64,000 nt of DNA, from positions 124,001 through 188,000 of the forward strand of contig NZ_JAULRT010000032.1 in the NCBI RefSeq assembly GCF_030518215.1. Direction: 5' to 3'. Below, piece by piece: positions 56,015-61,740 of the stretch. How positions within the stretch are numbered: position 1 is the first letter of the stretch; each line of letters begins with the position of its first letter. The notes beneath the pieces were generated by a model that ran no database searches, had not been told where the DNA came from, and saw nothing but the letters and a program-made list of their open reading frames with translations. This DNA is from Gilvimarinus algae. GTDB lineage: Bacteria > Pseudomonadota > Gammaproteobacteria > Pseudomonadales > Cellvibrionaceae. The position numbers and the translations under genes were made by a program.

Positions 56015-58234
56015 GTGAAACTGGTGTTAAAAGTTCTGCTGGGTTTGGTGTTGCTGGTTGTGCTGGCCGTTGCAGTGGTCTTCCTCTGGCTGGACCCCAA
56101 TGTGTTCAAACCCCGTATCGAGGCGCTCGCGAGCGAGCAGGGTGTGCACCTGGAGATTCGCGGCGACCTGTCCTGGCAGTTCTGGCCGAGTGTGGGTATC
56201 GAGATCAATGATATTGCGCTAGCCAGCGCGCAGACACCCAATGAGCCTCTGGCGAGCCTGGCCAGTGCCAGCTTGCTGGTTGCCACTCGCCCCCTGTTTG
56301 ACGGCGAGCTGGTGGTCGAGCACTTGCTGGTGGAAGGCGCGCGGGTGGATCTGGTCAGTGACGCCCAGGGTCGTGGCAACTGGGAAAATCTGACTCGCGC
56401 TAACGCTGAAGCCTCCCCCGAGGATCTGGCCCGGGCGAAGGCCGCTGGGGCGGACCGCGCTACCGCCCTACCTTCTGGCGAAGAAGCGTCTAGTTCCGAC
56501 GAACCAAAGCCGGAGGGTGAATCCGGCCAGGCACTGAAGCTGGCGGTAGAGCGCATCAGCATTGCCGATACCGAGGTGAGCTTTAAGGATGAAGCGAAAG
56601 GCTCCCACACCAAGGCCCGGCTGGCTTCGCTGGTGCTGAATGGCTTTAACCTGGAAGATCGACCCTTTGATCTGAGCCTGGATGCCAGCGCCGAGGTGAA
56701 CGACCCCGCTGCCTTTGCCAAGCCCCTTGTGGCCGAAGTGCATCTGGAGGCGCAAATGCAGGTGGACGCCGCCATCAACCGTTTTGTGCTTGCCGGTGGA
56801 CAATTGGCGCTGACCCTTGGTGACGGCGCCAGTCAGGCCAGAGTGGCAACGGAGTTCGCTCTGACGGTAGAAGGCTTACAGGAGCAGCTCCGGTATACCG
56901 GCCAGTTGGCGGTGGAGCCGGTGAACCTCAAGGCTCTTTTGGCGAGCCTCGGGCAGGCCGTGCCGGAAACGGCCCGGGAAGACGCGCTGACGCGCCTGTC
57001 GTTTAGTACCGATGTCGTCGGCAGTAAGAATGCGCTGACATTGGCGCCGCTGGAAATGACGCTGGACGACACCACCTTTTCCGGCGAGCTGGCCGTGACC
57101 GATATCAGTAAACAGGCACTGCTGGTGACTCTGGCTGGCAATAGCATCAATGTTGACCACTATCTGCCGCCGCCCGCGCCGGACGCTGAGGCCGGCTCCT
57201 CTTCCAGCGCGCCCAAAGGCAAGGCGCCCGCTGCCGAGACACCGCCCGAAGCGCCTATACCCCTGGAGCCGATTCGCGCGCTCAACGCCCAAGTGAGCCT
57301 GGACTTGGCCAAGGCCATCGTCAACAAGCTTACCTTTGAAAACCTCAGGCTGCGGTTGAGCGCCAAAGATGGCCTGGTGCAGCTGAGCGAGGCCAGCCTG
57401 GATACCTATCAGGGGCACTTGCAAGCGGATGCGACCTTTGATGCCAGGGGCAATAAAGCCAAGGCGGCGTTTAACGCGGATATGGCCGGGGTGCGCTTGC
57501 AGCCGCTGCTGGCGGATCTGGAAATGAATGAAAAGGTCCAACTCACCGGTGCGCTCAACCTTGACGCGACGGGCACAACCAGCGGTGTGCTGGCATCCGA
57601 GCTGTTTGAAAAACTGGTGGCCGAAGCGCGCTTTAGTGGCGCTGAGGTGACCTTCGCGCCGATCAATGTGGAAAAGTACTTTTGCAAAATGGTATCGCTG
57701 GTGCGGGACGAGGCGCAGAGCGAAGACGGCAAAACCTCAGAGGAGCGCGAGTGGCCCGAGTTCACGCCCCTGCGCGCGCTGGAGGGCCGCGTTAATATTC
57801 GCGACCAGAAGGTGACGGTGGATAATTTCTCGGCGGGCGTAGAGCAATTGCTGCTGGCCACTCAGGGTAACCTGGATCTCGCCGGGCAAACCTACGATTT
57901 TCGCCTGCCACTGACATTGCTGGAGAAGGCCACCAGCGAGCAGGGCTGCACCGTCAAGAGCAACTACTGGCTCAACCGCAGCTTGTCGCTTTTGCGCTGT
58001 AAGGGATCGCTGGAAAACCTGCAGCCGCTGAAAGATTGCGGCCTGGACAGCAAGGCGTTAGAGTCGCTCACCGCCGACTACGCCAAGTATCGGGTGCAAA
58101 AGGAGCTGGTGCGCAAACTCGGTGGCGACAACAAAAACGGTGAGAACAAAGACGGCGAAAGCACGGGACAAGACGACACCAGCAAGGCTGTAGAAGGTCT
58201 GCTGAACCGGTTTCTGAAAAAAGACAAAGAATGA
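56015..58234 (+). CDS. AsmA-family outer-membrane/inner-membrane lipid-transport-like protein
   Basis: 739 residues from GTG 56015 (GGAG about 8 bases upstream). An N-terminal membrane helix (about 4-24) is followed by an AsmA domain ([41 protein letters not shown] seen in parts) and a long beta-rich chorein-like groove to ~690. An Asn/Gly/Asp/Lys-rich tail ends the protein. AsmA-like proteins bridge the envelope and are linked to phospholipid movement to the outer membrane. Its stop overlaps the mutY start (ATGA), an arrangement seen in other gammaproteobacteria. Confidence 0.9.
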
Positions 58235-59304
58235 GCGATGCGTTTGCCGCGTCCGTGCTGGAGTGGTTTGACCAGCACGGACGCAAACACCTGCCCTGGC
58301 AGAAAAACATAACCCCCTACCGGGTTTGGTTGTCGGAGATCATGCTGCAGCAGACTCAGGTGACCACCGTTATCCCCTACTTTGAGCGCTTTACCTGGCA
58401 CTTTGCCACGGTGGAGGCCCTGGCCGCGGCGCCGCTGGATGACGTGCTGCACCTGTGGACCGGCCTGGGCTATTACGCTCGCGCCCGCAATCTGCACAAG
58501 TGCGCCCAGCAGGTGGTGGCTGAGTACGGCGGCACTTTCCCCGACACCGTAGAGGCGCTGGCTGCACTGCCGGGCATCGGCGAGTCCACGGCCGGGGCCA
58601 TCGTCAGTATTGCCTACCGAAAACACGCCGCCATACTCGACGGCAACGTCAAACGGGTGCTTGCCCGTTACCATGCCATCGACGGCTGGCCGGGGCAGAG
58701 CGCCACCCTACAGGCTCTCTGGACCAAGGCGCGTGAGAACACGCCCAAGCGCCGCTGCCACGATTACACCCAGGCCATGATGGATCTTGGGTCCATGCTC
58801 TGTACCCGAAGCCGCCCGGCCTGCGAGTTATGCCCGGTAGGTGATGGCTGTGTTGCCCGAGCCACGGGCACCCAGGGGCGCTATCCCGGCAAAAAGCCAA
58901 AAAAGGACAAGCCGGTCAAGACTACCTATTTGCTCATGCTGCGCTCGCCCGCGGGCGAGCTGTTGCTGGAACAGCGCCCGGCCACGGGCATTTGGGGCGG
59001 GCTTTGGAGTTTTCCCGAGCTGCCGCTGGACGATGACCTTGCCAGCCACTGCCGCGAGCGTTACGGTGAGCCCGCGCAGCTGGAGACTTGGGATAGTTAC
59101 CGCCACACCTTTAGCCACTATCATCTGGATATTACGCCGGTGCTGATTCAGCTCGGGCGCTCACCCGACACAGTGATGGAAGCGCAGCAAACACTTTGGT
59201 ATAACGTGCACCAACCCGAGTCTGTGGGCCTGGCAGCACCGGTTAAAAAGTTGTTGGACAAGCTGGCTGAACTTGGGCCTCTGGGGGCTAACGGCCGTCC
59301 TTAG
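58231..59304 (+). CDS. mutY: Adenine DNA glycosylase MutY
   Basis: 357 residues. HhH-GPD domain with catalytic Glu36 ([10 protein letters not shown]), the [12 protein letters not shown] hairpin and the conserved Asp in [13 protein letters not shown] [4Fe-4S] cluster site has [17 protein letters not shown] (four Cys). The C-terminal NUDIX-like domain (about 225-350) recognises 8-oxoG. It removes A mispaired with 8-oxoguanine. Coupled to asmA upstream and followed by yggX, a common gammaproteobacterial order. Confidence 0.98.
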
Positions 59305-59330
59305 CCCACTAAAGCATTGCAGGAGTCGCT

Positions 59331-59609
59331 ATGAGTCGCACGGTATTTTGCCGCAAGTACAAGCAGGAACTGCCCGGGCTGGATCAGCCCCCGTACCCCG
59401 GCGCCAAGGGACAGGACATCTATCAAAATGTCAGCGCCAAGGCCTGGCAGGAATGGCTGGCGCACCAGACCATGCTGATCAACGAGAAGCAGTTAAACCT
59501 GATGGAGACCGGTACCCGCGTTTACCTTGGTGAACAAATGACCAAATTTCTTTCCGGTGAGGACTACGATGCCGCCGAGGGCTATGTCCCTCCGCCCCAG
59601 AGTAAATAA
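59331..59609 (+). CDS. yggX: Fe(2+)-trafficking protein YggX
   Basis: 92 residues. Typical opening [23 protein letters not shown], then [31 protein letters not shown] and a C-terminal [13 protein letters not shown]. It protects iron-sulfur proteins, consistent with its position after mutY, an Fe-S enzyme. Start 26 bases after the mutY stop, with AGGAG about 9 bases upstream. Confidence 0.97.
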
Positions 59610-59691
59610 TTTTGCCCCAGGCCCTTGACTCCAAAAGTCGCAAACGGTTTAATACGCGCCTCTTGTGACCGGGGACTCCCCGTATAACAAG

Positions 59692-59767
59692 GCCCAGATA
59701 GCTCAGTCGGTAGAGCAGTGGATTGAAAATCCTCGTGTCGGTGGTTCGATTCCGCCTCTGGGCACCA
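59692..59767 (+). tRNA. tRNA-Phe (anticodon GAA)
   Basis: A complete 76-base tRNA including the encoded CCA. The acceptor stem GCCCAGA/TCTGGGC, D arm GCTCAGTCGGTAGAGC, anticodon loop TTGAAAA with anticodon GAA, and T arm GGTTCGATTCC are close to E. coli tRNA-Phe. It is followed at once by the repeat array described separately. Confidence 0.98.
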
Positions 59768-59775
59768 TACAAATT

Positions 59776-59807
59776 AAAAGGCTCGGTCTTCGGATCGGGC
59801 CTTTTTT
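59776..59807 (+). terminator. tRNA-Phe terminator, copy 1
   Basis: GGCTCGGTC / GATCGGGCC stem with a TTCG loop and T6. The TTCG tetraloop makes it very stable. Present in three copies (see repeats). Confidence 0.93.
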
Positions 59808-59957
59808 GTTTTTACTGGCTTGGTGCGGACGAAATCGAACCAGCTCTTTATGGTGGTTCGATTCACTCGGGCCATCCCTGGCCCTCGCCCTTCGGGCAGC
59901 ATAGCTGTGAATCGCGGCCTCCTGCCGCACTTTCCGCCTCTGGGCACCATACAAATT

Positions 59958-59989
59958 AAAAGGCTCGGTCTTCGGATCGGGCCTTTTTT
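59958..59989 (+). terminator. Terminator, copy 2
   Basis: Identical to copy 1, offset 182 bp, following a duplicated tRNA 3' end. Confidence 0.85.
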
Positions 59990-60252
59990 GTTTTTACTGG
60001 CTCGGTGCGGGCGAAATCGAACCAGCTTTTTATGGTGGTTTGACCGAATGCGCCGCATTCAGCAATGAGCGTAGCGAAACCCGAAGGGGCCAACTCGCGG
60101 TTGAGCGAGTTGGATTCTTCACTCGGGCCTCAGCCCAGGCTGCCTTCTCTGCTTTCAGCATTCACCTTGTCCCTGGCCCTCGCCCTTCGGGCAGCAAAGC
60201 TGTGAATCGCGGCCTCCTGCCGCGCTTTCCGCCTCTGGGCACCATACAAATT

Positions 60253-60282
60253 AAAAGGCTCGGTCTTCGGATCGGGCTTTTT
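60253..60282 (+). terminator. Terminator, copy 3
   Basis: Third copy, identical through the stem and with a divergent T-run, offset 295 bp from copy 2. Confidence 0.8.
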
Positions 60283-60327
60283 GGTCTTTTGATTCGCCTA
60301 GGCTGCTGGTGTGAAGGTTTTCTATGC

Positions 60328-61740
60328 TTACTGCTGAGCTTGCCAGAGGGTCACGCGATTGCGACCGTTTTCTTTGGATTGGTAAAGGGCCTCGTCCGCA
60401 CGTTGTATCAGTTCGTTGGGGGTGTGAATACCGGAGCGCACTGAGCTGATACCGAAACTTGAGGTCACTTGCACGCCGTCGCAGTCGCGCGCCTGTATCT
60501 CTGTGCGGCAGCGCTCGGCAATCTGGCTGGCCTGCTCTAGGTTACTGCCGGGCAGAATAATGCAGAACTCTTCACCGCCAAAACGGGCGACCGAGTCGCC
60601 TTCGCGCACAATGTGTTTGACGGTTTGCGCCACGGTCTTGATCACTTCATCGCCGACGCTGTGGCCGTGAGTGTCATTGATGCGCTTGAAGTGATCAATG
60701 TCGAGCATGATGCAGCACAATTCACCTCTGTGGTTTTGCGCATCGATAAACGCTTGATTGAGGGCCTGGCGCAGAGCGCGTCGGTTCAGGCAACCGGTCA
60801 ACGGATCGTGGGAGGCGAGGTGCTCGAGCTTGCGGGTTTTTTCTTCCAGTTCGGAGACGTCGCTAAAGCTGGCAATAATGCCCTGCGCTTTGCCTTTGGC
60901 ATCGGTAATGGGTACGGAGTTGACGCGAAACACTAACGGGTGCTTTTTGTCGTTGCCAAGCAGCAGGCGCGCGCCGGTAACGCGATCGCCGGCGTTCAGG
61001 GTGCGCAGCCAAGGCAGTTCGCTGTTTTCGTGCGTTTGCCATCCGAGGCTGCTGGCTTTACGACCGAGCAGTGACTTTTCACTCATCTGCAGGTATTCGG
61101 CGATAACTTTGTTGGCCAGCACCACCTGTTCGCGCTTGTCGAGAATGAGTACGCCCTCGGCCAAAACATTGAGCGCATTGCGCACCCGTTCGGGAACCAC
61201 CGAGCTCGGGTCGAGGTAGCGCAGAGTGCGGCCGATCAGCAAGCGGTAGCTGATAAAACCGACAATCAGAATAAAAACCGCTAAAAGGAGTTGGCGAGGC
61301 AGGCCGAAGTAGCTGGTGTCCTGTCGGTTCAGTGGCTCGAAGGCCAGTTCCAAGTGACCGAGTTGTTGTCCGGCCATAAACAGGGGAATGCGCGCGTAGC
61401 GTTCAGTGGAGTGTTCGTCGGTGGCGGCGGGCCACAGCTCGCCGTGGCGCGGCGTATAGACGGCGAGCTCTCCGCCGGTGGAGCGCACCGCTGCCGAGAG
61501 AATATTGTCGTTGCGCTCGACGGCGTTTTCCAGCAGCTGCTTGACCAGAACCTCGTCTTTGCGCGAGTAGGCGAGAAGCGTCTGAAAGGCGAGGGTCTCT
61601 GCGAGGTTCTGGCGCGCCTCAAGCTGACTTTTGCGCAGGTCAGGGGTCAAGCCGAGCACTTGCGCGATCAAGAGTATGGACACGGTGAGCAATAACAGCC
61701 CCAGGCTGAGACGCACGGCTGGCGTTATCTTTAGCATCAC
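60328..61740 (-). CDS. Membrane diguanylate cyclase with PAS and GGDEF domains
   Basis: 470 residues. A first membrane helix (about 10-30), a periplasmic sensor region and a second helix (about 148-168) precede a PAS domain (about 185-295, LAEGVLILDKREQVVLANK) and a GGDEF domain (about 305-470) with active site GGEEF (388-392) and RxxD inhibitory site (379-382). It makes c-di-GMP in response to an external or internal cue. Its ATG overlaps the stop of the Ig-like protein gene by 4 bases, so they are translated together, and the two probably form one surface-sensing unit. Confidence 0.93.
   Translation of the reverse strand: MMLKITPAVRLSLGLLLLTVSILLIAQVLGLTPDLRKSQLEARQNLAETLAFQTLLAYSRKDEVLVKQLLENAVERNDNILSAAVRSTGGELAVYTPRHGELWPAATDEHSTERYARIPLFMAGQQLGHLELAFEPLNRQDTSYFGLPRQLLLAVFILIVGFISYRLLIGRTLRYLDPSSVVPERVRNALNVLAEGVLILDKREQVVLANKVIAEYLQMSEKSLLGRKASSLGWQTHENSELPWLRTLNAGDRVTGARLLLGNDKKHPLVFRVNSVPITDAKGKAQGIIASFSDVSELEEKTRKLEHLASHDPLTGCLNRRALRQALNQAFIDAQNHRGELCCIMLDIDHFKRINDTHGHSVGDEVIKTVAQTVKHIVREGDSVARFGGEEFCIILPGSNLEQASQIAERCRTEIQARDCDGVQVTSSFGISSVRSGIHTPNELIQRADEALYQSKENGRNRVTLWQAQQ

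Follow-up and report, generated by a model that had tools for sequence, protein, structure and literature searches.

A repeat array behind tRNA-Phe in Gilvimarinus algae as a very probable member of the TLR family, probably built from a mobile hairpin element docked in spare tRNA tail copies

Escherichia coli K-12 carries 22 tRNA-linked repeats (TLRs) at ten loci, each repeating the final 18-19 bp of the upstream gene; although described as early as 1978, they have no agreed function, and the rrnB T1-T2 terminator of many vectors contains one of them (PMC8144298). The same source reports that RrA, RrB and RrF, which derive from between T1 and T2 of rrnA, rrnB and rrnD, are products of read-through that bind both CsrA and Hfq in vitro, and that the 19 tRNA-linked E. 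coli TLRs have a CsrA-prediction score below 0.01 (PMC8144298). In the tyrT/tyrV repeats of E. coli MG1655, annotated rttR, an inverted T-arm is followed by the 5' half of a T-arm, by hairpins with a CCCGAAGGGYGA core and by the 3' half of the T-arm with CCA, the same arrangement as at the locus described here.

This locus lies in a window, the whole stretch of 64,000 nucleotides of the Gilvimarinus algae genome that was analysed, and follows the gene order mutY-yggX-tRNA-Phe (58231-59767; mutY and yggX by NCBIfam matches). A GGDEF (diguanylate cyclase) gene is convergent with the array and ends at 60328. The features, in window coordinates, are as follows.

59692..59767, plus strand: intact tRNA-Phe(gaa) gene (ARAGORN; Rfam tRNA, 67 bits)
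59776..59805, plus strand: intrinsic terminator 1 (terminator scan; fold of 59768-59818, z -5.5)
59830..59842, minus strand: inverted T-arm copy 1, pairing with 59852-59864 (repeat search and fold)
59852..59864, plus strand: T-arm 5' half copy 1, GGTGGTTCGATTC (repeat search)
59864..59933, minus strand: three-hairpin element 1 in the T-loop, antisense to the tRNA (covariance model R1, 74.8 bits, E 9.8e-19 in 94.5 kb)
59932..59949, plus strand: tail copy 1, the last 18 nt of tRNA-Phe with CCA (sequence, repeat search)
59958..59987, plus strand: terminator 2, a copy (terminator scan)
60010..60024, minus strand: inverted T-arm copy 2 (repeat search)
60034..60043, plus strand: T-arm 5' half copy 2, GGTGGTTTGA (sequence)
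60042..60117, plus strand: element-like hairpin block, forward, with core CCCGAAGGGG (judged by eye)
60120..60228, minus strand: three-hairpin element 2, antisense, broken by a nested insertion (extent read from the sequence)
60130..60169, no strand: nested insertion of about 40 nt in the loop of hairpin 3 (comparison with element 1)
60227..60244, plus strand: tail copy 2, the last 18 nt of tRNA-Phe with CCA (sequence, repeat search)
60250..60285, plus strand: terminator 3, an altered copy, GGGCTTTTTGG (terminator scan)

The last 18 nt of tRNA-Phe (TTCCGCCTCTGGGCACCA) are identical at 18 of 18 positions in both tail copies. A preliminary description of this DNA had reported further copies of the tail with its CCA, the spacer and the TTCG terminator at +182 and then +295, and ARAGORN, a repeat search and the sequence itself bear this out: successive starts lie 182 and 295 nt apart, and the first copy matches without a difference for about 70 nt, far more than chance would give. 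The T-arm 5' half and an inverted T-arm are copied too, so that the copying is wider than was noted. Each unit runs from terminator through inverted T-arm, T-arm 5' half and T-loop insert to the T-arm 3' half, acceptor strand and CCA, and then to the next terminator; because the T-arm 5' half and the inverted T-arm recur along with the tails, each tail copy is best described as a T-arm whose T-loop is split by an insert. Five terminator-like sites were found, two of which are shorter versions of terminators 1 and 2, against a mean of 1.9 (sd 1.7) in shuffled sequence. The first unit folds with z -3.1 on the tRNA-side strand and z -2.5 on the other; the third showed no excess fold stability (z -0.2). 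At gathering level the only Rfam match in the window region was tRNA, and matches to MicC, Thr_leader and similar families fell far below their gathering scores and were taken as chance.

The insert is about 72 nt long (about 70 bp) and consists of hairpin 1 (9 bp), a variable hairpin 2, a core GCCCGNAGGGYGAG and hairpin 3 with the loop ANGGAY; its ends read AC...GTG or GTC. R1 was trained on copies from the window's genus and family and contained neither the window copies nor any E. coli sequence. Among 30 distinct copies, picked partly by their stems, 98.9% of 626 cells were paired and 16 of 21 pairs changed on both sides. A wider set (the best 150 of 189 matches, 146 of them distinct) came from profile and model searches and was aligned by the model, so that it leans towards the structure; in it 97.7% of 3050 cells were paired, 20 of the 21 pairs changed on both sides, and 624 cells carried both-side changes, compared with 163.9 after shuffling and no more than 108 in slid controls. 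The second window element is matched by R1 on the minus strand over 60163-60228 (47.1 bits, E 3.7e-11). The forward block at 60042-60117 gave no R1 match at E<=1; blocks that resemble it by eye also occur at loci L007 (genome G003) and L008 (G004). The unit of about 40 nt at 60130-60169, CAGCCCAGGCTGCC...ATTCACCTTG, is dispersed in Gilvimarinus genomes (L002, L003, L005, L043, L044) and there, by eye, again often sits between the arms of a hairpin.

R1 finds the same element in E. coli. In 5 kb of E. coli sequence it matched rrnB T1-T2 at 53.7 bits and four tyrTV units at 16.3, 16.3, 16.3 and 10.7 bits; in 44.5 kb around other E. coli tRNA genes it matched proK (26 bits), three units linked to argV/Z/Q, and lysV. 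These matches are rrnB T1-T2 and the nine units in which 15 nt of a tail are copied exactly outside a tRNA gene, and thus 10 of 10 E. coli units in the stretches examined share the structured core with the array. The array also lies downstream of a tRNA gene, as TLRs lie downstream of a tRNA or rRNA gene, and its 3' part matches the end of the upstream gene at 18 of 18 nt, as against 18-19 bp in TLRs. Since a covariance model trained within the genus and family recovers ten E. coli TLR units, we conclude that the array is very probably a member of the TLR family. The tRNA-linked units of E. coli score modestly with R1 (10.7-26 bits) and are without a full hairpin 1, which is fuller in the array; furthermore, the array differs from the E. 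coli TLRs in lying outside Enterobacterales, in having its element antisense to the tRNA and in the further insertions of its third unit. The rrnB T1-T2 segment (L141:839-912) falls in the same element family by R1.

The parallel with rtT drawn in the preliminary description was right and goes deeper than unit length, as tyrT/tyrV have the same plan and are found by R1. The similarity of 182 to 178 bp holds for the first unit and is partly an accident, the second unit being 295. The Rfam model RtT (RF00391) describes a like architecture, yet it gave no match in 59500-60600 up to an E-value of 5, and its gathering score was not reached; as a positive control it found E. coli tyrTV four times (132.9-137.5 bits) and proK once, and it matched neither rrnB nor the tRNA-Asp unit of L060. 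RrA, RrB and RrF represent the same three-hairpin element (rrnB was tested), likewise between two terminators and with the tail of the upstream gene copied; they differ in being linked to 5S and in sense orientation, and in that their transcription and their binding to CsrA and Hfq have been shown (PMC8144298).

Short palindromic repeats, some of them in frame within genes, are also found among Rickettsia palindromic elements, REP/BIME sequences and MITEs, whose plan and site probably differ from those of the array's element. Among the matches listed in our literature searches, which mostly left subscription journals outside their coverage, there was no account of TLRs outside Enterobacterales. 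As far as these searches show, and within the literature covered, TLRs outside Enterobacterales, tmRNA-linked TLRs and antisense insertion in the T-loop are new, as are the S^AA target, a tRNA gene interrupted by the element (both described below) and a model common to the array and rrnB T1-T2.

When 150 of 2711 first-look candidates in the G. algae genome were scored, R1 gave 15 matches at E<=0.1, of which 14 passed E<=0.001. These 14 confident matches are all located at stable-RNA genes (nine at tRNAs, one at the tmRNA, two in an rRNA operon, C4, and two at contig ends with the sequence that comes after 5S in that operon), three of them (tRNA-Ala, one tRNA-Asp and the tmRNA) being training sequences of R1. 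The rRNA operon contig has two element copies after 5S, and two other contigs begin in that repeat (L100, L104, L105). The fifteenth match (19 bits, E 0.08) is at a locus without tRNA or tmRNA. Among 39 tRNA genes identified by ARAGORN in the stretches examined (the genome as a whole has 40 Rfam tRNA matches), eight are followed by a copy of at least 12 nt of their own 3' end; ten had been flagged, and tRNA-Gly and tRNA-Glu of L071 were dropped because their copies are neighbouring tRNA genes. The tRNA-Ala locus L056 has the same plan as the tRNA-Phe array, with no second terminator copy in the following 330 nt. This locus is flanked by two minus-strand matches to TwoAYGGAY (RF01731) above the gathering score, at 170-273 and 945-1009 of L056; R1 matches neither, so they were rejected as copies of the element and look like another dispersed repeat.

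A DNA search of 97 genomes, the organism's own and those of relatives, matched 32, and the same plan was found behind tRNA-Phe in other species and genera as well as behind tRNA-Asp, -Ala, -Ser, -Gly and others. Genomes with an R1 match at E<=0.001 numbered at least 52 among 145 in the order, 125 among 274 in the class and 71 among 249 in a sample of the phylum; these counts are lower bounds, because no more than 34 (order), 18 (class) and 20 (phylum sample) candidates were scored in each genome. In the phylum sample, 54 of the 71 positive genomes lie outside the class, 42 of these 54 belonging to one family. The element thus occurs through Pseudomonadota, with many copies away from tRNA genes. 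When the best match per genome from the order and class surveys was taken, 29 of 58 loci outside G. algae had the 3' end of a tRNA, tmRNA or 5S gene between -50 and 700 nt upstream, the chance level of 1-2% being a rough, uncomputed estimate; of these 29, L127 depends on a doubtful tmRNA* prediction and L128 has the element inside a tRNA, and among the loci surveyed L114, L244 and L247 lie less than 100 nt from a contig end. The other 29 loci had no stable-RNA 3' end in that range, some of them being near contig ends. The preliminary description had held that the same repeats scattered away from tRNA genes, together with the absence of a transcript past the first terminator, would mark a generic dispersed repeat. 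On the scattering the outcome is divided: the confident matches in the organism's own genome are all at stable-RNA genes, yet other lineages also have copies scattered at a distance from such genes. In a genome outside Gammaproteobacteria (G489, 20 candidates scored), three loci (L270, L271, L273) contain head-to-tail arrays of the element with a period of 72-74 bp.

The tRNA-Phe gene lies on the same strand behind yggX in 75 of 80 named loci. Eight of these 75 genes, none of the eight in Pseudomonas, have the element or a tail copy of at least 12 nt, and 67 have neither within 1.5 kb or to the end of the locus. Counting the gene itself, three tails are present in the window, L007 and L017, two in L009 and L010, and one in several loci.

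A sequence-profile search of 296 loci, including the training loci, yielded 146 distinct complete copies; 70 are linked to a gene (55 sense and 15 antisense to it), 63 are unlinked and 13 undecidable. These copies are related to each other, so that the counts that follow are not independent. In the unlinked copies, position -1 was G or C in 63 of 63, position +1 was A in 54 and the next base was A in 39; after removal of 7 abutting copies and 14 with shared flanks, the values were 42, 34 and 27 of 42. In 35 of the 70 linked copies the right flank repeats at least 10 nt of the 3' end of the copy's own gene (0.0 with swapped tails), and in 34 of these 35 the copied tail starts 16-20 nt from the gene's 3' end. 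Upstream, 30 of the 70 linked copies have an inverted copy of at least 8 nt (control, 4.2), and 20 of the 70 have a direct left copy of at least 8 nt (control, 1.8). Joining the flanks across the element restores 11 nt of the copy's own gene, and hence a precise empty site, in 32 of 70 linked copies, against 0, 4, 1, 4 and 0 with swapped genes; shifts of up to 2 nt were allowed in both test and controls, and 21 of the 32 restored sites have exact model boundaries. No target-site duplication was seen in these 21 linked copies, in which the junctions are blunt. This empty-site comparison covers the linked copies and L128.

Because unlinked copies show S^AA too, the TTCG^AATCC of T-loops can be regarded as one S^AA site among others. 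In tRNA-Phe the antisense copies sit at GCGG^AATCG, which lies on the other strand; orientation at tRNA-Phe genes is antisense in five cases and sense in four. At L128 (1442-1726), a tRNA-Arg(CCT) gene is interrupted in its T-loop by the element, at TTCG^AATCC, and an intact duplicate of tRNA-Arg(CCT) with the same leader starts about 60 nt after the end of the remnant. At L251 (1501-1572), a 72-nt copy lies inside a gammaproteobacterial prmA with the frame kept (24 codons).

If RNA from one strand were selected, G.U pairs should outnumber A.C pairs, because a G.U on one strand reads as an A.C on its complement. With all pairs counted, the ratio was 77:25 (sense-linked 21:5, unlinked 38:9, antisense-linked 5:4). 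Of the 146 copies, 51 have G.U and 3 have A.C at a single pair, the one at the base of the core hairpin (alignment columns 78 and 112), a strand bias absent from the other stems, and the other 20 pairs gave 26 G.U to 22 A.C; without the core pair, the ratio was 9:3 in sense-linked, 10:9 in unlinked, 2:3 in antisense-linked and 5:6 in other copies. The acceptor and T stems of tRNAs at the same loci (119 used of 122 distinct genes) served as a control and gave 74 G.U to 4 A.C, 63 of the 74 coming from three T-stem pairs and the acceptor stem by itself giving 11:2. Outside the core pair there is no clear strand preference, which weakly favours maintenance at the DNA level, through palindrome repair, gene conversion or selection for a DNA hairpin, over RNA selection. 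The test is a weak one, since the tRNA control rests on three T-stem pairs and the sense-linked copies still give 9:3, and the core pair together with that 9:3 would allow sense-linked copies a role as RNA.

These observations bear on the possibility that the locus is a regulatory RNA array, in which small RNAs made by read-through and cut at the tail sites act as sponges or as ligands of CsrA or Hfq and selection on the RNA keeps the structure. Such an array would be in keeping with the in vitro binding of the read-through products RrA, RrB and RrF (PMC8144298), with the GGA loops and deep covariation of the element, with a GGA strand on the transcribed side in 55 of 70 linked copies, and with the 21:5 of sense-linked copies as long as the core pair is kept. 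We nevertheless consider it unlikely, as G.U is not clearly commoner once that pair is left out, 67 of 75 yggX-linked tRNA-Phe genes do without element or tail copy, and the tRNA-linked E. coli TLRs have CsrA-prediction scores under 0.01 in the same source. At the window locus both elements are antisense to the tRNA, as are five of the nine copies at tRNA-Phe genes generally. The GGA hairpin loops expected of a CsrA/Rsm ligand are absent from the transcribed strand, the elements being on the minus strand and the tRNA on the plus strand; because the GGA loops are not on the strand transcribed with the tRNA, a CsrA-binding role is unlikely here, and a reading of the locus as a CsrA sponge was dropped. 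The array may perhaps give a read-through RNA, with a chance somewhat below even, and the probability that such an RNA would bind CsrA is low.

Three further explanations would account for parts of the array. Replication slippage by itself, with tail duplications and palindromes arising through template switching and no mobile element, agrees with the inverted T-arm copies and with the scarcity of wobble intermediates outside the core pair; we judge it distinctly improbable, as it leaves unexplained why the same element of about 72 bp occurs far from tRNA genes at S^AA, or inside prmA. Terminators 2 and 3 could instead be all that matters in the array, by insulating the convergent diguanylate cyclase gene, which would fit the three terminator copies and the gene end at 60328, but this is very improbable: split T-arms and a conserved element have no place in it, the tRNA-Ala locus shows the same plan without a second terminator copy in 330 nt, and terminator 3 is altered. 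Phages or islands that integrated at tRNA 3' ends and left an att copy each time would account for tail copies that start 16-20 nt from the tRNA 3' end, like att cores, yet units of 182 and 295 bp have no room for an integrase, the trailer, terminator and inverted T-arm are copied as well, and the element also lies behind 5S rRNA and inside a protein gene; we regard such scars as highly improbable. The phrase 'scar of integration' in the preliminary description fits only if modified to mean an element of about 72 bp inserted into a T-arm copy.

We therefore favour the reading that the locus is a TLR array in which a mobile hairpin element is docked in spare tRNA tail copies and which grew by duplication and insertion, and consider it probable. 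By covariance model, the same three-hairpin element is present in the T-loops of the array, at tRNA, tmRNA and rRNA ends of the same genome and in E. coli TLRs. We infer that the element would be small, probably non-autonomous and mobile, inserting bluntly at S^AA; T-arms would offer such a site, as TTCG^AATCC or, in tRNA-Phe read from the opposite strand, as GCGG^AATCG, and insertions may survive in a spare tail copy while the intact gene remains. The array would then have grown by duplication of tail, terminator and element, followed by further insertions. That the array arose when a mobile hairpin element inserted into spare copies of the tail is fairly probable, and growth by duplication is likely because the units are near-identical. 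Against insertion, the duplicated tail, terminator and inverted T-arm are not explained by insertion alone, and 35 of 70 linked copies are without a tail copy of at least 10 nt.

More broadly, and more tentatively, with a chance a little short of even, TLRs, rtT repeats and rrnB T1-T2 may all be docked copies of one Pseudomonadota-wide, three-hairpin mobile element of about 72 bp, for which blunt S^AA insertion, the T-arms of spare tails as a haven and upkeep of most of the palindromes at the DNA level would be primary and RNA roles secondary. A single model links the TLRs with the tRNA, tmRNA and 5S copies of other Gammaproteobacteria and with dispersed copies, and since it supplies both a target site and an RNA-versus-DNA test, it makes the origin of TLRs directly testable.
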